39,542 bases of DNA. Source: Clostridiaceae bacterium. Its GTDB lineage: Bacteria > Bacillota > Clostridia > Peptostreptococcales > Natronincolaceae. Below, in pieces: positions 255 to 30,254 of this stretch. Every line of letters starts with the position of its first letter. Positions within the stretch are counted from its first letter, which is position 1. The translations under genes and the position numbers were made by a program. The stretch lies in the NCBI GenBank assembly GCA_020832135.1, contig JAFIFG010000117.1, positions 1 through 39,542 on the forward strand, given 5' to 3'. The notes below the pieces were generated by a model, which searched no databases, was not told the DNA's origin, and worked only from the letters and a program-made list of their open reading frames with translations.

Positions 255-293
255 AAAAATACACGATCTCCAATATCTTAAAGGAGATCGTGT
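255..293 (-). terminator. Rho-independent terminator of the 278-1936 recombinase
   Basis: An 11-bp perfect stem (261-271 with 283-293, arm ACACGATCTCC on the minus strand) with an 11-base loop. It is followed on the minus strand by ATTTTTG. The recombinase stop codon TAA (278-280) lies within the loop. Confidence 0.75.
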
Positions 294-1936
294 TGATTTA
301 ATTCTGGATATAACAATGTCACTTCTTTAATATCAACCCTTTTCTCTTCTTTGTTGTATAATACTTCTACTTTATCTACAAAATTCAATACAAATTCTCT
401 TCGTACTCTTATTAAATCTTCATCATTTCCTTTACTAAAAATACCCGGTAAAAAATGACTTATTAACTCTTGCAATTCTTCCTTAGTCTTTCTTTTAATC
501 CCCATATTCTTGCAAACAATTTTCAAAGCATTTCTATAATTATCTAAAATATCATTGGCAATGATACGTTGAGTGTGAATAGCTTTCTTCATATATTCAT
601 CGTTCTCTCCAGATACAATAGTATTTATATTTAGTATGAAATCCTCGTATTTTTTGATCCTTATTTTTATTTCATTTTCTATAGTAGAAGATTTCGAAAT
701 TATCTCTTCCATTCTTTGATTATATGTATTCCAATATATGTCTATATTATCTAAACAAAAGAAATTGCTTCTCATATGTTCTAAAAATCGATGCTCAACT
801 AACCATGACGGAATAATAACCTTACACTTTTTTCCTTCTATTTTATTTATATAAATACATCTATATACATTTGTCTTATTTATGCCGGGATTCCTTGATT
901 TCATAATACTTTTACATTCTGGACAAACTAATTTATCCTTTAGAATAAAACTAGTATCATAGTGAAATCCATCTCTACTTTTTGCTCTAACACTTCTTTC
1001 ATCAAGGGTTTTATTCCATGTTCCTTCACTAATTATGGCATTATCTAAAGTCTTTTCAGATATTATAGGATTATCGTTTTTTCTTCCGGGATTACGTCTA
1101 CCTCCACGTCTATCCCAAACTATTTTTCCAGTATAAATTTCATTTTTAATAATTCCTTCTATCTTTCCCTTACTCCAAGTTATAAAGCCATAATTTTCAT
1201 TCATCTTGTCAGCTATTAATTTATATCCCATTCCCATTAAATATAATCTGAAGACCTCTTCAACTAGTGCTCTTTCAAGGTTCGATGTTTTAAGTGTTGT
1301 ATACCATTTCTTTTTGCTTTGTGAATTGTTTGTATTAATCTTAGGTATGTAACCAAATGGTACTTTTCCTCCGGGCCATCTCCCCTTACTTGCACAAGTT
1401 ACCATACCTGATTTGACTCTATTAGACAGAAGGTTACCTTCCATTTCCGCAAGACTTGTAAATACTATATGTAATAATCTTTCTATATCAGAATTACTTT
1501 CATCAAAATTTTCTCCATCTCTTATATAATGTACCTTTATGCCTTTTCTTTTAAAGTACATCTCTAGTTCTATTGTATCTTCTACAACTCTAGATAATCG
1601 ATCCCTTGCATAAATTATTAGATGCGAAAATTTACCTTCATAAGCTGAATATATGAGTTCAGTTAACTGTGGTCTATCTTTAAAACTATCTAGTATATTG
1701 AATTCCTCATCAGACTTTCTTTCTATCCTTGTTGCTGGCTTTACTTCTTTGAAAGTAAATTTTTGGGGCAACTCCCATCCTTTTTCATTAACAAATCGCT
1801 GAATACTATCAAGTTGTGCATCAAGAGAATATCCTTCTTCATCTTGTTTAGAGGAAGATACTCTTAAATATGCTGCTACTTCTTCAATTGGATTTCCCTC
1901 TTTTTCCTCTACTAATAATTGAGTATTTTTGGCCAT
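278..1936 (-). CDS. Large serine recombinase (recombinase B)
   Basis: A 552-residue site-specific DNA recombinase of the large serine family, which cuts and rejoins DNA through a 5'-phosphoserine link. The N-terminal resolvase domain begins AAYLRVSSSKQ, with the nucleophile probably Ser27, and contains the conserved RDRLSR motif near residue 113. A recombinase domain follows (GKVPFGY, then GIIKNEIYTGK), then a zinc ribbon (CPEC near 341, YRC, KKC) and a C-terminal coiled coil. Length is normal for the family. The start ATG is preceded by AGGGAG about 11 bases upstream and overlaps the 3' end of the broken recombinase gene by 53 bp in another frame, so the two were co-transcribed and probably translationally coupled. 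It may need the neighbouring recombinase as partner, or may act alone now that the neighbour is broken. Confidence 0.93.
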   Translation of the reverse strand: MAKNTQLLVEEKEGNPIEEVAAYLRVSSSKQDEEGYSLDAQLDSIQRFVNEKGWELPQKFTFKEVKPATRIERKSDEEFNILDSFKDRPQLTELIYSAYEGKFSHLIIYARDRLSRVVEDTIELEMYFKRKGIKVHYIRDGENFDESNSDIERLLHIVFTSLAEMEGNLLSNRVKSGMVTCASKGRWPGGKVPFGYIPKINTNNSQSKKKWYTTLKTSNLERALVEEVFRLYLMGMGYKLIADKMNENYGFITWSKGKIEGIIKNEIYTGKIVWDRRGGRRNPGRKNDNPIISEKTLDNAIISEGTWNKTLDERSVRAKSRDGFHYDTSFILKDKLVCPECKSIMKSRNPGINKTNVYRCIYINKIEGKKCKVIIPSWLVEHRFLEHMRSNFFCLDNIDIYWNTYNQRMEEIISKSSTIENEIKIRIKKYEDFILNINTIVSGENDEYMKKAIHTQRIIANDILDNYRNALKIVCKNMGIKRKTKEELQELISHFLPGIFSKGNDEDLIRVRREFVLNFVDKVEVLYNKEEKRVDIKEVTLLYPELNQHDLL

Positions 1937-3443
1937 TTAATATCAACTCCCTAACATTCTCGTAGATAAAAAGTTCTAATAGAGCTGGGTAATTTTGTTC
2001 TAGTTCATCGGCTATAACCTCGCAATACCCGCCTTTTGCTAGTGGGATGATAATATCTCTTAATTTGCTACTTATGAATTCCTTTTTTGCTATTAAATTT
2101 TTAGTATCGATATTTCTTTCTTCTATTTTCTTTTGTTTACTTACTATATTAGATTTAATTGACTGGTTATTTGATGTAATTAGTTTATCTATCATACATT
2201 TCTATTCGCTTATCAGGTCTAATGATTTTTTTCTATTTTCAGAAATTTTTCGATCTATTTCTTTTATTACATTATCTATTACCTCTTTATAATTTTCTGT
2301 AATAGATAACGACTCTACTATTGATAAAGTCAGATCTCTTACTAAAGATTTCTTTCTTATAGATTTACACCCTTTAGTATTACAACTATATGCACCTTTT
2401 GAATATTCTAATGTCTTATTGCAACGCCTACATCTAATTGATTTCTCTAAAATAACGTTCGCCTTGTTTTCATTTAACCTAATACTATTGTTTTGATCGT
2501 TATTTATACACCATTTATCTACCACCCTAAACCATTATTCAGGAGTTATCACTGTAGTTTCTATATTAGTAAATGGTAAAAAAAATTTTTCATTTGCCTG
2601 AACAATATTTTCATTATGTTGAACATAAAACATATTGTATCTATACATTGCATTTGATATCTGAATTCCTGCATAAAATGGCCTACTTAAAATTTTTTTT
2701 ATATCTGAGGGCTTTAAATTAGATACAAGCTTAAAATATTCTTCTGACTCTGTACCTTTGTAATTAGTTTCCATATTATCCTTTAATTTACTACACAGTT
2801 TTTGGTGATCTGTTACTTCATCGTTATTTAAAAAGATATCAAATATGTCCTGTACTATTTTGAATTTAGCTCCATCTTTATAGTAGGTTTTATCATATTT
2901 ATCATATTTAAAACCATAGGATGGAGCTTTATCATATATTTGTTTTTGAATCTTAGCATTTCTTCCAGCTTCGGTTCTTTGTTTAATTCTTCTAGGCTCC
3001 ATCTCAGCTAAACCCATAATTATATTTTCTATAAATTCAGTAGCATAGCTTTTTTTATCATTAAGTTCTATGTCATTGCTATATAATATTTCTACATTCA
3101 ATTTTTTAAATATATTCTTTAATTCAATATACTCTTCAAAGTTCCTACACATTCTATCTCTTCTTGTTACTATAATAGATTTAAAATACCCTTTTTTAGC
3201 ATCATCTAGTAATGCCATGAATTGAGGTCTATCAGTATATTGTCTTGATGAAGCTGAAATTAATTCGCTATATTCATTATAGATAAATAAATTTTTGTTT
3301 CGAGCATGTTCTCTGCAGAAATGTTTTTGAGTCTCTATAGGGTTAGGTACACTTGTATTAGATTCTCTTGCATAAATTGCTGCATATTTATAGGGATTAC
3401 TTATAATCTCTTGAATTTGGTTTTTCTCCTCTAGTAATTCCAT
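1884..3443 (-). pseudogene. Large serine recombinase broken by two in-frame stop codons (recombinase A)
   Basis: One continuous frame of about 520 codons encodes a complete large serine recombinase but contains TAA at 2535-2537 and TAG at 2202-2204; the frame is the same on both sides of each stop, with no shift. The first part (about 302 residues from ATG 3443) has the catalytic region YAAIYARES (Ser28), RRDRMCR and the recombinase domain. The second has a zinc ribbon (CRRC, then CNTKGC). The third is the coiled coil and tail. Across the first stop the text reads ITPE-stop-WFRVVDKW, where family members have a sense codon, commonly Gln; CAA to TAA is a single change. Neither downstream piece has a convincing ribosome site. 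The start is ATG 3443, with AAGGCGG nine bases upstream, rather than the TTG at 3452. A fragmented but functional protein is unlikely. Confidence 0.85.
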
Positions 3444-3558
3444 ATATATCAACCGCCTTTTCTTCCTTGAAACTTTCTTCTATTATTTTATCTATTATAA
3501 ATCTAACAAGTTTATTCTTAGCATTGAGTTCCTTAGTAAAATATACTTCGTTCTTCAT
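3397..3558 (-). CDS. Small 53-residue protein overlapping recombinase A
   Basis: The frame starts MKNEVYFTKELNAKNKL and ends GEKPNSRDYK. Its ribosome site GGAGG lies seven bases before the ATG, among the best in this region. It ends inside the start of the recombinase A gene, overlapping it by 47 bp in another frame, and lies between that gene and the nuclease gene, so all belong to one transcript. The charged helical sequence gives no family that I recognise. By position it could be an accessory or directionality protein for the recombinases. That is inference only. Confidence 0.6.
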   Translation of the reverse strand: MKNEVYFTKELNAKNKLVRFIIDKIIEESFKEEKAVDIYGITRGEKPNSRDYK

Positions 3559-3586: not shown

Positions 3587-4387
3587 TTAAAATAGCCTAT
3601 TATTCATTTCTTCATTTATTGAATTGATGATATTAATTATTATTGAATTAAAATCCTTCGCTTCAACACATTTTTCAAAGAACTCACAATTGACATTGCA
3701 ATACTCATTTGGCTTACAAGGAAATTCTTTTTCATCAGATATTTGACTAGACATGTCTTCAATAAATGCTTTAACTTCGTTAATTAGCTCATCGGTTACT
3801 TCTATTTCCATTTTATAATTATACGATAGATAGTAATAACTAACTATATCTGGGTAACAGCCTAACTTCTCTTGGGTAAGTAGAATATAAATTGGTAATT
3901 GCACAAGACCTATTGGCTCTACTTTGGCACCAGTTTTATAGTCAATAGTTTCTATTAAGTTGTCATTTCTCAAATAAACTTTATCCAACTTTCCAGTTAG
4001 TACAACACCTGCTCCCATATCTTTCTTTATCATCTCTTCTATTATTAAATTTTCCTTGCCTTGATCCTTAGGATCATGGCAGTATTGTGATAGCATATTA
4101 AGTCCCCTTAAACCATATTCCCTCTCCTCCTCAATTGATTCATATCCATCTCTTATCCAATTTCTCCTTAGTAATTTGTGCAAATTAGCTTCGTTTCTAT
4201 ATTCCTCGCTAGTTATTTTATTAAACTGAGCAAGCGTAGAATGAATGCTGTTTCCAAAAGACAAAAACTTATTAGCAATAGTCCCTTCAGATTTTTTCTT
4301 TTCTATATACTTGTAACGATACTTTTTTCTACAATTCATAAATACCTGCATATTTGAATTGCTAAGATAGATGTTGTTTTGCTTCAT
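3587..4387 (-). CDS. PD-(D/E)XK nuclease with 4Fe-4S cysteines (Cas4/AddB-like)
   Basis: This 266-residue protein resembles the RecB-type nuclease domain of AddB and Cas4. Visible motifs are GNSIH (His49), GKLDKV (Asp135), TIDYKTG (Asp149, Lys151) and QLPIY (Gln163 to Tyr167), the full motif set of a RecB-family exonuclease. Cys19 plus Cys230-x3-Cys234-x5-Cys240 match the iron-sulfur cluster layout of AddB and Cas4. No helicase domain, cas gene or CRISPR array is present. The start was moved to ATG 4387, with AGGAG eight bases before it; the upstream GTG at 4396 is too close to that site. It is the first gene of the recombinase operon. It may process element DNA ends or counter host nucleases, but the role is unknown. 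Confidence 0.8.
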   Translation of the reverse strand: MKQNNIYLSNSNMQVFMNCRKKYRYKYIEKKKSEGTIANKFLSFGNSIHSTLAQFNKITSEEYRNEANLHKLLRRNWIRDGYESIEEEREYGLRGLNMLSQYCHDPKDQGKENLIIEEMIKKDMGAGVVLTGKLDKVYLRNDNLIETIDYKTGAKVEPIGLVQLPIYILLTQEKLGCYPDIVSYYYLSYNYKMEIEVTDELINEVKAFIEDMSSQISDEKEFPCKPNEYCNVNCEFFEKCVEAKDFNSIIINIINSINEEMNNRLF

Positions 4388-4575
4388 ACTGTCCACTCCT
4401 ACCTAAATCTAGTTTTCTATCCCGACACATGTTGCAACATATATAAAAATTGACACTATATGCGTCTATGTACGATATATTATTTTCATAATTTCATAGT
4501 TTATTAGTGTTAATTTATGGTAATAATTCTCCTAACCATTTTTTTAGTTTATAGAAGCAATATAGGGGGGATTTT
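4388..4575. promoter_or_regulatory. Divergent control region with a 12-bp dyad
   Basis: The region lies between the nuclease-recombinase operon (minus) and the XRE repressor gene (plus). It contains a perfect palindrome ATGTTGCAACAT at 4429-4440, a plausible operator for the adjacent repressor. On the plus strand TTGACA at 4452-4457 resembles a -35 box, with AT-rich GATATATT about 18-20 bases later. The arrangement is that of a phage-type switch. The promoters themselves are weak calls. Confidence 0.4.
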
Positions 4576-4974
4576 ATGATTACGCTAGGTAAAAGGCTAA
4601 AATACCTTAGAATAGAAATGGATTTATCTCAACAAAATCTAAGTGATGAGTTATGTATACCAAGAAGTACCATATCCTCATGGGAATCTGATAGTAGGAT
4701 ACCTGAACTCTCCGCAATAATAGAGTTATCAGATTATTTTAATGTCTCAATTGATTATTTAGTAGGAAAGTCTAGTATGAAAAGTTATGTTGCTAGTAAA
4801 TCCTCAAATGAAAGCCCTTATAAAGCTATATTTGATGATTTAGAACTAATAGATTTTATAGATAAGCTTGCTGAAAGAAAGGATCTACAGGTACTATGTA
4901 AGATTTTAAGAAGCATCTCAAGAGACAATATTGGTAAGATTACTGATGTCATTAAGGTGTTAAAATTGGATTGA
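4576..4974 (+). CDS. XRE-family helix-turn-helix repressor
   Basis: A 132-residue protein. Residues 1-65 form a Cro/CI-type HTH_3 domain: GKRLKYLRIEMDLSQQNLSD, then IPRSTISSWESDSRIPEL, then a third helix ending FNVSIDYLVGKS. The C-terminal half (66-132) is helical and unassigned, with no visible LexA-type protease residues. The ATG follows the ribosome site GGGGGG six bases upstream. It is transcribed away from the nuclease-recombinase operon and sits next to a 12-bp dyad, so it probably represses that operon and possibly itself, keeping the element quiescent. The DNA target is inferred. Confidence 0.9.
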   Translation: MITLGKRLKYLRIEMDLSQQNLSDELCIPRSTISSWESDSRIPELSAIIELSDYFNVSIDYLVGKSSMKSYVASKSSNESPYKAIFDDLELIDFIDKLAERKDLQVLCKILRSISRDNIGKITDVIKVLKLD

Positions 4975-5492: not shown

Positions 5493-8195
5493 TTAATTTT
5501 CTTGTGTTAATTCTTTATATCTTTTCATCAAATATGCTATGCAATCTTCTTCTGAAGTTATATTCCAAATTTTACCGTATGTTTCCCAAACGACTCGATC
5601 ATTTGCAATATGAGCTCTTCTTAATTCTGGAGGCATAATAGTATCATCATATAAATCTCCTAACGTCCAATCAGAATATAGTTCTCTTGCTTTCAAAATA
5701 TTTCCTGCTGTCTTTTCTAATTTTAATTTCATATTATCCTCTAACTTGGGAAAAGGAAAGGTATTATAAACTATAAATGCTGAGTATCTATAGTCGCTCT
5801 TTAATCTACCAGCCACTACTCTCATCCAAGCCATATGAACATTAGATGTTAGAAGAGCATATAATACTAAATCACCATCTGGTACTGTCAAGACCGCATT
5901 ACTAAGTATTACACTTTGGTCAACATATCCAATTGGTATATATCTTCTCTTTTCTGATGATGTAGCAGGAACAACTAATGATTTTTCTGGATTGTTGGTT
6001 TCCCTAAAAAGCCACGGTGTATCTGCTTTTTTTCTTGTTCCAGCATCACTACTGGCCAAACGCATTTCTCTTACGTTTTCTATTCGTTTCATAAGTAAAG
6101 GATGCTTTCGTACTTCTCTTATATCTGCATCTGCAAACCATAAGCAATATCTTTCTTTTCCTTGAATAAATTCCCTAGCACCCATAAACCTTTTAATCCA
6201 TTGTTCTGCTTTAGGATCTTTAGATAATAATTCTTCTTTCTCCTCACTGCTAAGTAACAAGAAGCCCCCTTCTGTTGGTTGGTTCCCTTTCATCATTTTA
6301 GGCATTCCACCCAAAGAAGATCTTGCTTCATTCACGATTACATTTGGCGCATCTACCAAATATGGACTTATATTTTTCCCATTTGTTAAGGTTCCATTTG
6401 AAGAGTATAAATATTTGTGATTACTATTATTATAAGCTTTGCTAAATCCTATTATTACACAATGGACTGCTGCTTTCCCTTTGGCTTCATTGCTCCATTT
6501 GAAAGTTTTATATGCAAAATCTATGATAATATCATTGTTAAGTAGATGAGTCCAAAGAGTTTCTACTTGTTCTCCTTGAGTTATTGAATTTGTAGAAACA
6601 AATGCTGCTTTAACCCAAATATTGTTATTCATCACCTGCATCGCTTTTATAAACCAAGAAGCAACATAATCAAGGTTTTTCAATTTTGCCTTTTTCCCAA
6701 ATAATGCTCTCATATCATTTTTTTGCTCTTTAGTTTGATATTCAGCACCAATAAATGGGGGATTACCCAATATATAATTTAAATTTCCTGCAGTTAAGTC
6801 ATCCCATTCTAGCTGTAATGCATTCCCATAAATAATACTAGCATTTTCTTTAATAGGAAAATCTATAATATTCATACCAAAATAATTGCTAACTTCTTGA
6901 TCCATTAAGTGTTTCATTAAAAGAATAGATACTTTTGCAATTTCACAAGCAAAATCTTCATATTCAATCCCGTAAAATTGATTAATATGAACCCTTGTAT
7001 AAATAGCGTTTATCATTGCCATTTGTTGATTAACACCCATATCATACAAGTATTTAAGAATTTCAAATTCCAATTCTCTTAACTTTTGATAGGTAAGAAT
7101 AAGAAAGTTCCCACTACCACATGCTGGATCCAGAAATTTTAAATTCGCTATCTTATCGTGGAATAGATTTAATTCTTTTATTGTATTTTTTGAGCGTTCA
7201 AATTCATCATATAAATCGTCTAAGAATAATGGCCCTATTACCTTCATAATATTTTCTTCAGAAGTATAATGTGCACCTAATTCACGACGTTTATCCTGAT
7301 CCATAATTCCTTGAAACATCGCACCAAAAATAGCTGGACTTATTTCACTCCAATTAAAATCACAACATTCCAGAATTATTTGACGCATTTTTTTATCAAA
7401 AAAGGCAGGTGGAAGTTTTTCTGAAAATAAATGACCATTGATATAACGAAAACGGTTTAATTCTTCTGATAAATTAGTCATCCTTTGATCTTTTGGAGTA
7501 TCGAGAATAGAGAATAATAACATTATTCTCATCGATAAATCTGAACCATCCTCTTTAGATTCGCTAATATACTTTTGAAAACTTCCCTTTTCAAAAATTC
7601 CTGTATCGTCCGCAAATAAACAAAAAAGTAATCGAACTAAATAGACTTCAAGATTATGACCTATATATCCATTTTCTTTAAGTGCATCATGAATTTTTGC
7701 CATTTTATACGAAGCATCCGTATTTAATTCTATTTCCGTTTGTGTTTCATCTGTTGTTCCATAACCAGCTATGATTCCAAAAATACGAACATGCTGTTTT
7801 AACTGTGTTACTTTAAACGGTTTATATCTATGATCTTTTTCTAAGTTGTACACTTCAATCTTATTAAAATCACAAACCATTACTAACTTAGGAATTTCTT
7901 CTGGTTTAAGAGCATGTATATAGTCCATTGCTTGAGAATATGCTCTAGTTAAAGACTTGCCCTTTGATTTCATTTCAATTAAAATTTTTCCCGGTATCAA
8001 ATAATCAATATAACCTATTGAACCATCTTTTAACCTAATTTGATATTCATGTAAACCATCTCGAAAATCCACACCAAATACATTCATCAAATCTTTTTCA
8101 AATGTTTGAGCTTCTTGTCTTTCATCTCCTATACAGTTTTTCCATTGTTTTTGAAATTGAACTGCTCTTGATTCAATTTCTGTCCATCGTAACAT
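5493..8195 (-). CDS. MmeI-like (type IIG/IIL) restriction-modification enzyme
   Basis: This 900-residue single-chain enzyme should both methylate adenine in its target and cut DNA at a fixed distance. The N-terminal nuclease motif is Asp64-x9-Glu74-x-Lys76 (IDY, then IEMKSK), the same spacing as in MmeI. A helical linker follows. The N6-adenine methyltransferase core has motif I DPACGSGNF from Asp356 and motif IV NPPFIG from Asn478. The target-recognition region (about 600-780, with PTEGGFLLLS and YCLWF) and a C-terminal helical part complete the MmeI order. Length is typical and no catalytic residue is missing. ATG 8195 follows GAGGTG. It is the only intact gene in its segment and has its own terminator; a decayed HTH gene lies directly upstream. 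As element cargo it would protect the host against phage. The recognition sequence cannot be read from the protein. Confidence 0.88.
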   Translation of the reverse strand: MLRWTEIESRAVQFQKQWKNCIGDERQEAQTFEKDLMNVFGVDFRDGLHEYQIRLKDGSIGYIDYLIPGKILIEMKSKGKSLTRAYSQAMDYIHALKPEEIPKLVMVCDFNKIEVYNLEKDHRYKPFKVTQLKQHVRIFGIIAGYGTTDETQTEIELNTDASYKMAKIHDALKENGYIGHNLEVYLVRLLFCLFADDTGIFEKGSFQKYISESKEDGSDLSMRIMLLFSILDTPKDQRMTNLSEELNRFRYINGHLFSEKLPPAFFDKKMRQIILECCDFNWSEISPAIFGAMFQGIMDQDKRRELGAHYTSEENIMKVIGPLFLDDLYDEFERSKNTIKELNLFHDKIANLKFLDPACGSGNFLILTYQKLRELEFEILKYLYDMGVNQQMAMINAIYTRVHINQFYGIEYEDFACEIAKVSILLMKHLMDQEVSNYFGMNIIDFPIKENASIIYGNALQLEWDDLTAGNLNYILGNPPFIGAEYQTKEQKNDMRALFGKKAKLKNLDYVASWFIKAMQVMNNNIWVKAAFVSTNSITQGEQVETLWTHLLNNDIIIDFAYKTFKWSNEAKGKAAVHCVIIGFSKAYNNSNHKYLYSSNGTLTNGKNISPYLVDAPNVIVNEARSSLGGMPKMMKGNQPTEGGFLLLSSEEKEELLSKDPKAEQWIKRFMGAREFIQGKERYCLWFADADIREVRKHPLLMKRIENVREMRLASSDAGTRKKADTPWLFRETNNPEKSLVVPATSSEKRRYIPIGYVDQSVILSNAVLTVPDGDLVLYALLTSNVHMAWMRVVAGRLKSDYRYSAFIVYNTFPFPKLEDNMKLKLEKTAGNILKARELYSDWTLGDLYDDTIMPPELRRAHIANDRVVWETYGKIWNITSEEDCIAYLMKRYKELTQEN

Positions 8196-8894: not shown

Positions 8895-9080
8895 TTATTT
8901 GGATCTTCCATTCTTAATTTCATTCTGTACTATGTAGGTTATTCTCTTTAATATTTTATCTATTTCTTCTTTGGTCTTATTTTTGTAAGCATCATTATAT
9001 ATCTCAATTTGTGTATTTCCAAGATTAAATTTCTCTACTAAATTACCTTCGGATTTTTGACTCCTAATTTTTGGATACAT
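8895..9080 (-). CDS. Small conserved-type protein divergent from the edge recombinase
   Basis: A 61-residue protein. After a polar start (MYPKIRSQKSEGN), the core EKFNLGNTQIEIYNDAYKNK resembles unnamed small proteins that I recall near serine recombinases of clostridial elements. The C-terminal half (TKEEIDKILKRITYIV) is an amphipathic helix and the tail is basic. The ATG follows GAGGGGTGG. It is transcribed away from the recombinase at 9335, with about 250 bp between them. Its size is similar to SprB (58 residues), the directionality factor of SPbeta, so an excision-control role is possible, but I see no sequence proof. It could equally be an uncharacterised regulator. Confidence 0.6.
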   Translation of the reverse strand: MYPKIRSQKSEGNLVEKFNLGNTQIEIYNDAYKNKTKEEIDKILKRITYIVQNEIKNGRSK

Positions 9081-9136
9081 TTGACCACCCCTCTTACCCT
9101 TAAAATATTCAAAGCCGACTTTGTCCTATTACAAAA

Positions 9137-9334: not shown

Positions 9335-10921
9335 ATGGATGTAGCAATGTATCTACGTAAGTCTAGAGCTGATATTGAATCTGAATTAAAAGGTGAAGAA
9401 GAAACACTGAAAAGACATGAAAAAATACTTTTAGAACTAGTAAAGAAGCTTAATTTAAATATATTGCAAGTATATAAAGAAGTGGTTTCTGGAGAATCTA
9501 TAGCCGCAAGGCCAGTTATGCAGGGACTACTTTCTGATGTAGAAAAAGGATTATTTGATGGTGTGCTTGTTGTAGAAATAGAACGTCTTGCCCGTGGGGA
9601 TACCATGGACCAAGGCATAGTTGCACAAACCTTTAAATATTCCAATACAAAGATTATAACTCCATCAAAAACCTATGATCCACAAAATGAATTTGATGAA
9701 GAGTATTTTGAATTTGGATTATTCATGTCCAGAAGAGAATATAAAACAATCAATAGACGTTTGCAATCTGGTAGGCTTTCATCCGTGAAAGAAGGTAAAT
9801 ACGTAGGGAATATACCTCCCTATGGTTATGCTAGAAAAAAACTAGAACGCGAGAAAGGTTATACGTTAGAGCCTCATCCTGAACAGGCTGATATAGTAAA
9901 TTTTATTTACAAGCTCTATACTATAGGTGAATTACAGGAAAATGGCACCTTAAAAAGATTAGGTGCTTCCTTGATAGCTAAGAAATTAAATGATTTAAAC
10001 ATTCCTACTGTTAAGGGTGGTGTTTGGACTCCCCACACAATACGAGGTATATTAAGTAATCCAGTATACATAGGAAAGATACGATGGAACTCCCGATCTC
10101 AAGTGAAAAAAATTATAGATGGTAAAATGGTTAAAGAAAGACCTAGGGCCAAGGAAGAAGATATAATACTGGTTGATGGACTACACACTGCTATTATAGA
10201 TGATGAATCTTATAAGCTAGCAAGAAAGATTGCCAAAGAAAATACTATTGCAAGATTACCTAGTAATAAAACTATTAAGAATCCACTTTCTGGTATAATC
10301 ATATGTGGATTTTGTAGGAGAAATATGATAAGAAGACCTTATGCTAATAACTATCCAGATGCGCTAATGTGCAGTGTTCCCACCTGCCCTAATGTAAGTT
10401 CTATGCTGTATCTAGTTGAAGAAAAACTTTTAGAAGCTTTACAAGTTTGGCTAAATGAATATACATTGGATTTTAATTTTGAAGAACCTACAAATGAACA
10501 TTTAGACTTACAAATTGATATAATAAAAAAATCTTTAGAGAAGCTTACTCATGAGATGGAAACTATACAGAAACAAATAAGTAATCTACATGACTTATTA
10601 GAACAAGGTGTATATACTATAGAAACTTTTGTAGATAGATCTAAACTTCTTAATGAAAAACTGAGAATATTAGAAAATGATAAAAAGTATATGCAGGAAA
10701 ATATAAATAAAAGCGAAAATAGAATTAAAACTATAGAGACTTTAATTCCAAAAATACAAAAAATATTAGAAGCTTATCATTGCACAGAAAATCCTGCAAT
10801 AAAAAATAAGTTACTTAAGGAAGTTCTAGATAAGGTTGTATATACCAAAACTGTTAGTGGAAGATGGCACGCAAAGCCTGATAATTTCAAGCTTAAACTT
10901 TATCCTAAATTACCTAAATAG
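9335..10921 (+). CDS. Large serine recombinase at the element edge (probable integrase/excisionase)
   Basis: A 528-residue large serine recombinase. The resolvase domain starts MDVAMYLRKSRADIE (nucleophile Ser10), with EIERLARG near residue 87. The recombinase domain has IPPYGYARK and IRGILSNPVYIGKIRW, the zinc ribbon has ICGFCRR followed by CSVPTC, and a long coiled coil spans about 385-475. ATG 9335 was chosen because AGAGGGTG sits just before it; the in-frame TTG at 9314 has no such site. It points at the cotJC break, with its stop codon inside the dyad at 10919-10948, so it most likely catalysed the insertion and could excise the element. Its subgroup (LRKSRAD) differs from the other two recombinases in the window. 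Confidence 0.94.
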   Translation: MDVAMYLRKSRADIESELKGEEETLKRHEKILLELVKKLNLNILQVYKEVVSGESIAARPVMQGLLSDVEKGLFDGVLVVEIERLARGDTMDQGIVAQTFKYSNTKIITPSKTYDPQNEFDEEYFEFGLFMSRREYKTINRRLQSGRLSSVKEGKYVGNIPPYGYARKKLEREKGYTLEPHPEQADIVNFIYKLYTIGELQENGTLKRLGASLIAKKLNDLNIPTVKGGVWTPHTIRGILSNPVYIGKIRWNSRSQVKKIIDGKMVKERPRAKEEDIILVDGLHTAIIDDESYKLARKIAKENTIARLPSNKTIKNPLSGIIICGFCRRNMIRRPYANNYPDALMCSVPTCPNVSSMLYLVEEKLLEALQVWLNEYTLDFNFEEPTNEHLDLQIDIIKKSLEKLTHEMETIQKQISNLHDLLEQGVYTIETFVDRSKLLNEKLRILENDKKYMQENINKSENRIKTIETLIPKIQKILEAYHCTENPAIKNKLLKEVLDKVVYTKTVSGRWHAKPDNFKLKLYPKLPK

Positions 10922-10948
10922 GTATCACCTATAACATGGTGGTACCTA
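10919..10948. other. Attachment-site half with imperfect dyad at the cotJC/element junction
   Basis: TAGGTATCACC (10919-10929) faces GGTGGTACCTA (10938-10948), an 11-bp stem with one G-T pair and an 8-base loop. The left arm holds the recombinase stop codon (TAG 10919-10921); the right arm holds the stop that truncates CotJC (TAG on the minus strand, 10946-10948). It could serve as a terminator for the two converging genes, but serine recombinase attachment sites are also imperfect dyads, and it lies exactly where one half of the site is expected. Confidence 0.5.
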
Positions 10949-11143
10949 TTCTTCTGTTCCTATGTCTGTTAATAATCCTTTTGCCTCCCTAGTGGGAATG
11001 GTATATCTTTGATTTAAATATCTTAAGGCTGCTGATAATTCTCCATCTGGTCCTCCATATTGAGTTAATAAATATCTAGCTAGCTTAGGATTCGTCTGGT
11101 GAACCTTAACAGGATATTGTAATTTTTTTTCATAAATCCACAT
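10946..11143 (-). CDS. cotJC: CotJC N-terminal fragment, gene interrupted by the element
   Basis: The 65 residues, from MWIYEKKLQYPVKV through YGGPDGELSAALRYLNQRY to LLTDIGTEE, match the start of CotJC, a spore-coat protein of the manganese-catalase family that is normally about 190 residues long. The frame then meets TAG, supplied by the element. The missing part would include most metal ligands (those after the first Glu of GTEE), so the fragment cannot be active by itself. It has a strong ribosome site (AAGGAGG) and follows cotJB in the usual cotJA-cotJB-cotJC order. The undamaged reading frame up to the break suggests the gene may still be restored by excision in the mother cell. If excision no longer works, this is a pseudogene. 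Confidence 0.9.
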   Translation of the reverse strand: MWIYEKKLQYPVKVHQTNPKLARYLLTQYGGPDGELSAALRYLNQRYTIPTREAKGLLTDIGTEE

Positions 11144-11163: not shown

Positions 11164-11421
11164 TTAAAATTCTTCCTCCCACGGCCAAGGAGTTTCAATC
11201 CATCTCCAAGGATATTGACTTGGGGAAAATCCATAATTTAATAAAGGTCCATAGGCCATTTCATATTGTTGCTTTAACATCATCAATTCTCTAGCATATT
11301 GATTAAATTGCATAACTGCTCTTTGATCTTGAGGATGGGTGTCTAAGTACAGTTGTAATTCTAGAGCTGCAAACTCTACGTCCTGAATTTTTCTCATTAG
11401 AGCTCTTCTTTCATGCATCAT
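11164..11421 (-). CDS. cotJB: Spore coat protein CotJB
   Basis: An 85-residue protein with the CotJB features: LMRKIQDVEFAALELQLYLD near the N-terminus, then YARELMMLKQQYEMAYGPLL, and an aromatic tail WRWIETPWPWEEEF. CotJB is an inner-coat component that works with CotJA and CotJC. Its ATG overlaps the stop codon of cotJA by one base (TAATG), showing translational coupling, and cotJC follows after 20 bp. In Bacillus subtilis this operon is expressed in the mother cell under sigma-E; I could not find a clear sigma-E promoter here. Confidence 0.95.
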   Translation of the reverse strand: MMHERRALMRKIQDVEFAALELQLYLDTHPQDQRAVMQFNQYARELMMLKQQYEMAYGPLLNYGFSPSQYPWRWIETPWPWEEEF

Positions 11422-11612
11422 TATTTATCCCACCTCTCTTCCTTAGGTACATAAGGTTGATATAGCTCTGGAAATAGTGTGCCCCTCATTAAAGCTTCTC
11501 TAATGGGATATTCCATCATGTAGGTTTGATAGGGTATATATGCACGGGCATACATGACATACATAGGCATGAAGGGTATGGGATATATATTGTAGTAGGG
11601 TGTATGCATCAT
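11421..11612 (-). CDS. cotJA: Spore coat associated protein CotJA
   Basis: A 63-residue protein rich in Tyr, Pro and Met, with the CotJA-type core YQTYMMEYPIREALMRGTLF followed by PELYQPYVPK. It is the first gene of the cotJ operon; AAGGAGG lies about ten bases before a double ATG (11612 or 11609). The N-terminal part (MMHTPYYNIYPIPFMPMY) is unusually rich in Tyr and Pro. It functions in deposition of the inner spore coat together with CotJB and CotJC. Confidence 0.93.
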   Translation of the reverse strand: MMHTPYYNIYPIPFMPMYVMYARAYIPYQTYMMEYPIREALMRGTLFPELYQPYVPKEERWDK

Positions 11613-30078: not shown

Positions 30079-30207
30079 ACTTCAGTGCAAATAAAAAAGA
30101 GCATCTACGATGCTTTCGCTAGGAAACCCTAGGTTTCCTTCGACGACAGCAAAGCTGTCTGAGCACCTTCCTGAAGTCGGGCAGGGGATTTCATCCCCTA
30201 TAACCCC
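30079..30207. repeat. Cluster of hairpins in a branched arrangement
   Basis: Outer arms GACTTCAG (30079-30086) and CTGAAGTC (about 30171-30178) enclose three small perfect hairpins: AGCATC/GATGCT, GGAAACC/GGTTTCC and GACAGC/GCTGTC, each with a three-base loop. A fourth, GGGGAT/ATCCCC, follows. Together they can fold as a cloverleaf-like structure on either strand. On the minus strand the last hairpin is followed by CTTTTTTATTT, as in a terminator. No coding frame is present. It looks like a dispersed structured repeat or a small RNA; no known class is recognised. Confidence 0.6.
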
Positions 30208-30254
30208 TTTTTTTATATAATAGGAAAGTAGAACTTTCCTATTATATAAAAAAA
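30208..30254. repeat. 22-bp perfect inverted repeat
   Basis: Arms 30208-30229 and 30233-30254 are exact reverse complements with a three-base loop. The outer ends are seven T and seven A, so each strand carries T-runs. It abuts both the hairpin cluster and the rubredoxin terminator, sharing the latter's T-run, and may back up termination in both directions. Confidence 0.8.

Follow-up and report, generated by a model that had tools for sequence, protein, structure and literature searches.

Split cotJC genes in Clostridia: a serine-recombinase element at one of three recurrent cut sites and its probable excision during sporulation

Gene-intervening elements such as skin, SPbeta, gin and yin are already known in sporulating bacteria, and elements of this kind have been described in sigK, spsM, spoVFB, spoVR, gerE and yabG. 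Two of these systems are informative on regulation. In one study, the sporulation transcript start of sprB was mapped and a green fluorescent protein fusion was found to be mother-cell specific (PMC4191935), and another reports that CD1234, the gene for the recombination directionality factor (RDF) of the C. difficile skin element, requires sigma-E and SpoIIID (PMC5025042). The element considered here, which splits the spore-coat gene cotJC, is a further case of this kind. It lies in the window, i.e., the whole analysed stretch of 39,542 nucleotides, which corresponds to contig C62 of a Clostridiaceae genome (G000; 4.0-Mb assembly, 155 contigs). What is new is the splitting of a single gene at three sites and by multiple elements across Clostridia. 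No recognisable report of a split cotJC was found in the open-access literature searched with cotJC or cotJ combined with recombinase, prophage, integration and excision, as well as with broader terms. The word 'catalase' does not occur in the main text of a survey of large serine recombinase targets (PMC10083194), and two further papers place a C. difficile phage beside, and not inside, a cotJC-like gene (PMC11222575, PMC12122855).

In the window, the cotJC frame stops after 65 amino acids, ending in ...LLTDIGTEE, and the convergent integrase frame ends 24 bp short of the cotJC stop (Table 1). A preliminary description of this DNA had reported the truncation at TDIGTEE, the nearby end of a convergent recombinase gene, and intact cotJA and cotJB, and these observations are confirmed, both cotJA and cotJB frames being open. 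When the whole G000 genome was searched for Mn_catalase (Pfam, E 0.001), only two pieces were recovered, which cover profile positions 1-66 at C62:10949-11143(-) and 61-198 at C85:5545-5919(+). Since these two pieces are complementary, the split is real and does not reflect a chance stop. The second piece belongs to the cotJC 3' half (C85:5545-5940), which is flanked by element DNA and remains in frame until its stop codon at 5940; a separate gene lies beyond it at 6166-6873. The missing half that had been predicted to the left of the window thus exists, although on contig C85 and not further left, since the window contig starts inside the element.

The two junctions, ...GGAACA-GAAGAAT-AGG at the 5' half and ...TGGCACC-GAAGAAT-TAGCTCATG at the 3' half, have the core GAAGAAT in common. 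This core was chosen blindly by a script taking the longest common substring near the piece ends and nothing else, and joining the halves there yielded an in-frame CotJC of 190 aa (...LLTDIGTEELAHVEV...), as the preliminary description had anticipated for a protein of about 190 residues. The core lies over the T-E-E codons of the TEELAH metal motif, and CotJC falls in the Mn-catalase fold family, with a PF05067 match and the conserved ligand motifs present. Judged by eye, the att arms GGTACCACCATGTTATA (window) and GATAACATACTGGCACC (C85) surround the core as an imperfect inverted repeat; the deduced attP has the shape usual for such sites. The sigK gene is intact in G000.

The element carries its own site-specific recombinase at one end. 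This integrase matches Resolvase (PF00239) and Recombinase (PF07508) above the Pfam cut-offs and the zinc ribbon PF13408 just below (23.6 versus 25.3 bits), and its catalytic serine region is kept, YLRKSR being aligned with YLRRSR of SprA. Its closest solved relative in a PDB sequence search is YokA/SprA of SPbeta, with 29.5% identity in a direct comparison (E 3e-59). The element spans at least 16.5 kb, of which 10.9 kb lie in the window and 5.5 kb on C85, and its interior may be longer.

The same split was found in relatives. In the same family, cotJC is cut within TEELAH (site 2, see below) in five of 20 genomes (G000, G001, G002, G005 and G006), and the integrases of the other four are 58-79% identical to that of the window. 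The halves are separated by about 3.2 kb in G001, about 7.2 kb in G002 (Alkaliphilus transvaalensis, where both are present on a named scaffold, L041) and 39.5 kb in G006; in the 3.2-kb element, an integrase, a small gene and a nucleotidyltransferase/HepT-like pair were seen. When genomes of the order (297) and of the class (391) were searched with the integrase, with at most three or four candidates scored per genome, 40 genomes gave matches at E 1e-80 and 24 gave matches at E 1e-110; from these, 47 further loci were taken with up to 1.5 kb of flank. Among the 19 of these with integrase identity of at least 49%, a cotJC half lay within about 160 bp in 17, whereas none of the 28 loci at 47% or below had one. 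As for the two exceptions, G483 has cotJC broken at site 2 on two other contigs, and in G641 the 5' piece ends at site 2 and the middle was not found. Within eight loci from the genome_contigs collection, a cotJC half was on the integrase contig in five (L041, L042, L043, L047, L048); in L047 and L048, at 47-48% integrase identity, both halves are present with the integrase between them, and L046 has one marginal cotJC-like match 9 kb from the integrase. These associations suggest that the window integrase is the one that acts at cotJC site 2. No integrase relatives were found in the viral_contigs collection, none of its five pattern matches being confirmed. The genome of Paenibacillus phage phiIBB_P123 encodes an integrase 52.5% related to that of the window, and just past its stop, on the other strand, GATAACACCATGGTACAGAAGAGTATGAACCATCGGGATATC reads by eye as an attP-like palindrome with the cotJC core, which the att arms of the window element resemble; integrases of the site-2 group therefore occur in phages too.

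A search for the catalase family in 20 integrase-bearing genomes revealed several with cotJC in three or four pieces, a situation that goes beyond the preliminary description, which had missed this three-site hotspot. The gene is cut just after QYGGP (site 1), in TEELAH (site 2) or in MAAEQKA (site 3). When CotJC of the intact relative G004 was aligned to Mn catalase 1jku, the cuts fell at Glu35, Glu66/His69 and Glu148, which we take to be metal ligands. In G203, the pieces occur in order on a single 3.37-Mb contig, at 682934, 729905 and 769596, so that one gene is interrupted twice, by stretches of 46.8 and 39.5 kb; in G126 and G450, four pieces are spread over several contigs. In 12 of the 54 genomes in which at least one site is flanked by pieces on either side, two or three sites are cut, which implies two or three elements inside the gene.

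The integrases differ according to the site. Integrases of different site groups are 20-30% identical to each other, against 34-45% (site 1), 45-79% (site 2) and 59-69% (site 3) within the groups, the site-1 integrase of G645 being an outlier at 24-30% to the other site-1 integrases. In a tree of 117 rows, including a few duplicates and leaving out that outlier, the site-1 and site-3 groups each had a support of 100, and a support of 96 was obtained for a group that combines all 26 site-2 rows with three from phages and some whose flank has no cotJC. On these comparisons, the three sites have separate integrase clades, with one outlier. With one site-1 and one site-3 integrase as queries, 23 and 17 genomes of the class sample were retrieved; of the 23 site-1 loci, 22 had a cotJC piece in their flank, as had six of the 19 site-3 loci. 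Each of the eight site-3 relatives with at least 59% identity belongs to a genome in which a cotJC piece ends at site 3, and none of the 11 at 47% or below has a cotJC piece in its flank.

The extent of the phenomenon was estimated by a search blind to the integrase, which found a Mn-catalase-family match in at least 257 of the 391 class genomes; 51 genomes, picked for signs of fragments or integrase, were searched again. Together with the 20 integrase-bearing genomes above and, from the family set of 20, only its five split genomes, the table contains 187 pieces from 76 genomes. Internal piece ends fell in three windows of the protein in 88 of 94 cases and internal starts in 88 of 95, where it should be considered that these windows, about one fifth of the protein, were set after inspection of the data and that many genomes had been picked by integrase or fragment matches. 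Nine of the 76 genomes (G551, G360, G533, G599, G479, G441, G616, G445 and G129) were dropped for adjacent frames, contig edges, unclear pieces or an intact gene; besides the 54 with pieces on both sides of a site, 13 had pieces on one side only. In the class sample, at least 47 of the 257 genomes are split (19 at site 1, 32 at site 2 and seven at site 3), spanning 41 genera by hand count. Since genomes that were not searched again may hide more, this proportion is a minimum, to the extent that the assemblies can be relied on. No other intact gene of the catalase family is present in 41 of the 54 two-sided genomes, G000 among them. As a separate observation, G009 (L057, L058, L059) has an intact cotJC and several extra cotJC 3' fragments elsewhere in the genome.

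Both pieces of at least one cut were on one contig in 27 of the 54 two-sided genomes. Neighbouring pairs on the same contig and strand were in the right order in 32 of 34 cases, 2.7-157 kb apart, and one of the two disordered pairs (G442) fits a gene running across the ends of a circular contig. The widest ordered pair is in G332 (C1, 2541492-2698788), with halves 157 kb apart. The blind join produced full-length CotJC (188-206 aa) in ten of 14 loci, including the three-piece genes of G203, G455 and G400 and the four-piece gene of G126. Blind core-finding failed in the other four, giving short frames in G005, G442 and G645 and an in-frame product with lost residues in G450, and these joins were read by eye in homologous register. 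Additionally, both cotJC halves are without stops in the five family genomes and one intact relative, with a ratio of nonsynonymous to synonymous change (pN/pS) of 0.00-0.20.

Divergently from the integrase, the window element encodes a small protein that is a candidate RDF. A search of 46 stretches recovered its family (49-70 aa) in 18 distinct site-2 elements or phages; the family was present in none of 35 site-1 or site-3 loci (170 kb) and in none of 15 other loci. No trusted PDB, Pfam or PHROG match was obtained, and PDB profile matches, which were short and to unrelated chains, were set aside. TAGGACA occurs within 100 bp upstream of eight of the 18 small genes, against 0.19 expected from dinucleotide shuffles, and GACA-N12-[CA]ATA, with exactly 12 bp, likewise upstream of eight, against 0.14 expected and a maximum of two in 300 shuffles. 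Among 239 open reading frames (ORFs) of at least 60 aa in nine small-gene loci, the spaced motif precedes five, all of them small genes of the family. The window motif reads GTAATAGGACA-AAGTCGGCTTTG-AATATTTTAAGG, and the sequence upstream of sprB, AAGAGACA-N12-CATATAATA, has the same GACA-N12 spacing before the -10, both the motif and its comparison with sprB being post hoc, as TAGGACA was noticed after the sigma scans. Those scans, with plain sigma-E and sigma-K consensus sequences, were weak (2/18 each, with shuffle means of 0.2 and 1.1). Across 1.54 Mb of collected sequence, ATAGGACA-N11-13-[CA]ATA returned 22 rows, of which 15 precede a frame of 43-81 aa.

The sequence TAGGACAAAT fits a presumed SpoIIID consensus. 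At nine of ten letters, this consensus matched 15 of 19 upstream regions, not clearly above shuffles (mean 9.7, maximum 15); at ten of ten letters, it matched seven of 19, clearly more than shuffles (0.8, maximum 4). Of those seven matches, however, just three (L043, L159, L052) coincide with the TAGGACA box; in L048 the related TTAGACA stands equally far away, and sprB itself is counted too, with its match at another place. From these patterns, the small protein would act as an RDF and the upstream motif would be the mother-cell switch of this putative excision factor. In site-1 elements (L168; L184 and L187; genomes G468, G566, G455), ATAGGACA...AATA stands before different small ORFs of 51 and 79 aa, with four motif matches from three genomes, and these ORFs may be the elements' own excision factors. 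Shared small genes were also sought in site-1 and site-3 flanks, and the ten best candidates of each included what look like frames inside integrase genes.

The sequence of events proposed here, which is considered very probable, is that an SprA-type large serine integrase carried by the element inserted it into cotJC, at the conserved core over the T-E-E codons, and that cotJC would be split in growing cells. During sporulation, the directionality factor encoded by the element would be switched on in the mother cell from a promoter of SpoIIID/sigma-E or sigma-K type and would make the integrase excise the element. The 190-aa CotJC would thereby be rebuilt in a mother cell that is going to die, and the element would be retained in the spore. 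The possible restoration of cotJC by excision, as interpreted in the preliminary description, is supported by these findings; for its control by sporulation, the conserved small gene with its sprB-like upstream motif and the intact sigK of G000 give indirect support. A broader view, held with less assurance but still favoured, is that cotJC may be assembled by DNA splicing in many Clostridia, where up to three unrelated elements, each with its own integrase clade, would sit at different metal-ligand codons, and all of them would have to leave the gene in the mother cell, every time a spore is formed, before the catalase could be produced. Such assembly would be a bacterial counterpart of the way in which ciliates remove internal eliminated sequences.

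Several observations weigh against this proposal. In half of the two-sided genomes (27 of 54), among them G000, the pieces are known only from different contigs. In G029 (C1), the halves at 1011468 and 2091096 are 1.08 Mb apart in opposite orientation; unless this is a misassembly, the arrangement would be an inversion, in which deletion or excision could not rejoin the halves. The integrase tree does not follow the hosts, the integrases of the same-genus genomes G001 and G002 being in different branches, so that insertions move, may be recent and may be younger than the selection on cotJC. In the same sense, the synonymous divergence (dS) between G006 and the intact G004 is 0.13-0.17, and purifying selection may predate the insertion. 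Regarding the small gene, no match was found in L042, L155, L167 and L270, with several kb of flank, weaker relatives of the small protein (E 1.8e-6 to 0.007) stand beside seven of 37 related integrases that are not at cotJC, and ten of the 18 small genes are without the upstream motif. The comparison with SprB was not significant (0.4 bits), and for this reason the protein is called a candidate RDF and not a SprB homologue.

An alternative is that the elements are ordinary prophages or islands for which cotJC is a convenient attB, the gene being simply inactivated, the coat catalase dispensable and nothing rebuilt on schedule. The elements look independently acquired in the integrase tree, another intact family gene is present in 13 of the 54 split genomes, and a dead gene could gather further insertions free of cost. 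However, the pieces are open and in frame even in genes of three and four pieces, most two-sided genomes are without another copy, the internal piece ends are concentrated as described above, in windows defined post hoc, and the small gene has a sprB-like upstream motif, which makes simple inactivation unlikely. It could also be supposed that the element is a live prophage or an integrative and conjugative element excising spontaneously or under SOS in vegetative cells, with rebuilding at sporulation as a side effect or absent and with another meaning for the motif. The phage phiIBB_P123, with its related integrase and its attP-like site holding the cotJC core, points in that direction, as do the CI-type regulator of the window element and the response of SPbeta to both signals (PMC4191935). 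Yet the 3.2-kb element of G001 is too small for a phage and nevertheless keeps the putative excision kit, and vegetative and sporulation uses are not exclusive; this explanation is regarded as very improbable. Finally, broken or chimeric assembly or binning of an intact gene, suggested by the halves found on different contigs in many draft genomes, is already refuted for the group as a whole by the pieces sharing a contig, the ordered same-strand pairs, the three pieces on the 3.37-Mb contig of G203 and the scaffold L041, and can practically be dismissed.

If the proposal is true, programmed gene rebuilding at sporulation is no curiosity of a few Bacillus and Clostridium strains but would be the frequent condition of a single coat gene throughout Clostridia, with an uncultured Lachnospiraceae bacterium (L048) among the hosts. 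The proposal also suggests why elements choose such genes, as conserved metal-ligand codons would offer a broad attB and the gene would be needed only in the cell that will die. The three sites and their many orthologues would constitute a natural series of integrases, att sites and RDFs for engineering, and the upstream motif a way to look for more elements of this kind, whose split genes are likely to be labelled pseudogenes or short hypothetical proteins by standard annotation.

The remaining features of the window element are listed in Table 1. The third serine recombinase is seemingly in three frames (2535-3452, 2202-2525 and 1884-2195, of which the first was domain-scanned), and the broken gene at 1884-3452 is perhaps a decayed nested element. 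A near-perfect 29-bp inverted repeat with zero spacer (195-252), near the contig end, adjoins the second integrase gene. In the part of the element on C85, the stretch L003:1102-1250, between ORFs, forms a strong fold (z -3.75) and its ends, ACCTAAC...GTTAAAT, resemble an integron attC site; the folds of three comparable stretches are weaker (z -0.45 to -1.85). A Clostridiales-2 RNA (Rfam, 80 bits) was also found in the window at 30133-30215 (-).

Table 1. Features of the split cotJC locus and of its element in the window
Feature	Position	Strand	Basis
Large serine recombinase, 528 aa, proposed cotJC site-2 integrase	9335..10921	+	PF00239, PF07508; PDB match YokA/SprA, E 1.6e-52
cotJC 5' half	10946..11143	-	65 aa and in-frame TAG at element edge; Mn_catalase profile 1-66, 81 bits
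cotJB, intact	11164..11421	-	Open frame; relatives adjoin cotJC in related loci
cotJA, intact	11421..11612	-	Open frame
Crossover core GAAGAAT	10948..10954	-	Common to the 3' half on C85; blind choice as longest common substring
Element-side att arm	10930..10946	-	By eye
Small protein, 61 aa, divergent from integrase, candidate RDF	8895..9080	-	Family in 18 distinct site-2 elements or phages
Motif TAGGACA-N12-AATA upstream of small gene	9106..9128	-	Motif scan
MmeI-like restriction-modification protein, 900 aa, cargo	5493..8195	-	Five MmeI Pfam domains
Cro/CI-type regulator, cargo	4576..4974	+	PF01381
PD-(D/E)XK nuclease-family protein, cargo	3587..4396	-	PF12705
Third serine recombinase, N-terminal part only	2535..3452	-	Domain scan
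Second large serine recombinase, 23% identical to first	278..1936	-	Domain scan and identity comparison

Relatives of the window integrase were also seen beside other genes. Those at about 40-46% identity adjoin sigK halves on the 3' side (L010, L046, L069, L070, L077, L108) or on the 5' side (L106 and others), with TIGR02846 matches at L010 and L106 and recognition by eye at the other loci; the window integrase thus has skin-type relatives. At L204, L044, L067, L074, L104 and L209, relatives adjoin parts of cwlD (TIGR02883 match), of a SafA-like LysM protein, of a glycosyl-hydrolase-like protein (by eye, with no NCBIfam match) and of a D-Ala-D-Ala carboxypeptidase, which are possibly further split sporulation genes. 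Another integrase branch (L012, L081, L082, L084, L086) abuts parts of a gene resembling, by eye, an ABC-transporter binding protein, which is no known sporulation gene, and L081, L082 and L084 carry the TAGGACA motif despite this target.

Among the described systems, SPbeta in spsM of B. subtilis has the related large serine integrase SprA (29.5% identity). Its excision factor SprB has 58 aa, the sprB promoter has GACA-N12 ahead of the -10, and the target spsM is a mother-cell gene of the spore surface (PMC4191935). It differs in its target gene and att core, the window small protein is not detectably homologous to SprB, and at cotJC several integrase clades attack one gene. In skin (B. subtilis and C. 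difficile; CD1231/CD1234), a serine recombinase likewise splits a mother-cell gene, sigK, and the C. difficile RDF is under sigma-E and SpoIIID (PMC5025042); unlike sigK, cotJC encodes a structural coat enzyme and not a sigma factor, and the att sites are others. The gin element in gerE of Bacillus cereus ATCC 10987 is a non-phage island in a small mother-cell gene with three serine recombinase genes and one RDF. The window element also has three serine recombinase genes, and no phage structural protein was found among the element proteins scanned, whereas gin has another target and is one element in one site. Mother-cell sporulation genes are also interrupted by yin in yabG (C. botulinum), vfbin in spoVFB and vrin in spoVR. 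The authors of yin found no other genome with it, whereas split cotJC genes are present in 47 genomes of the class sample, spanning 41 genera.

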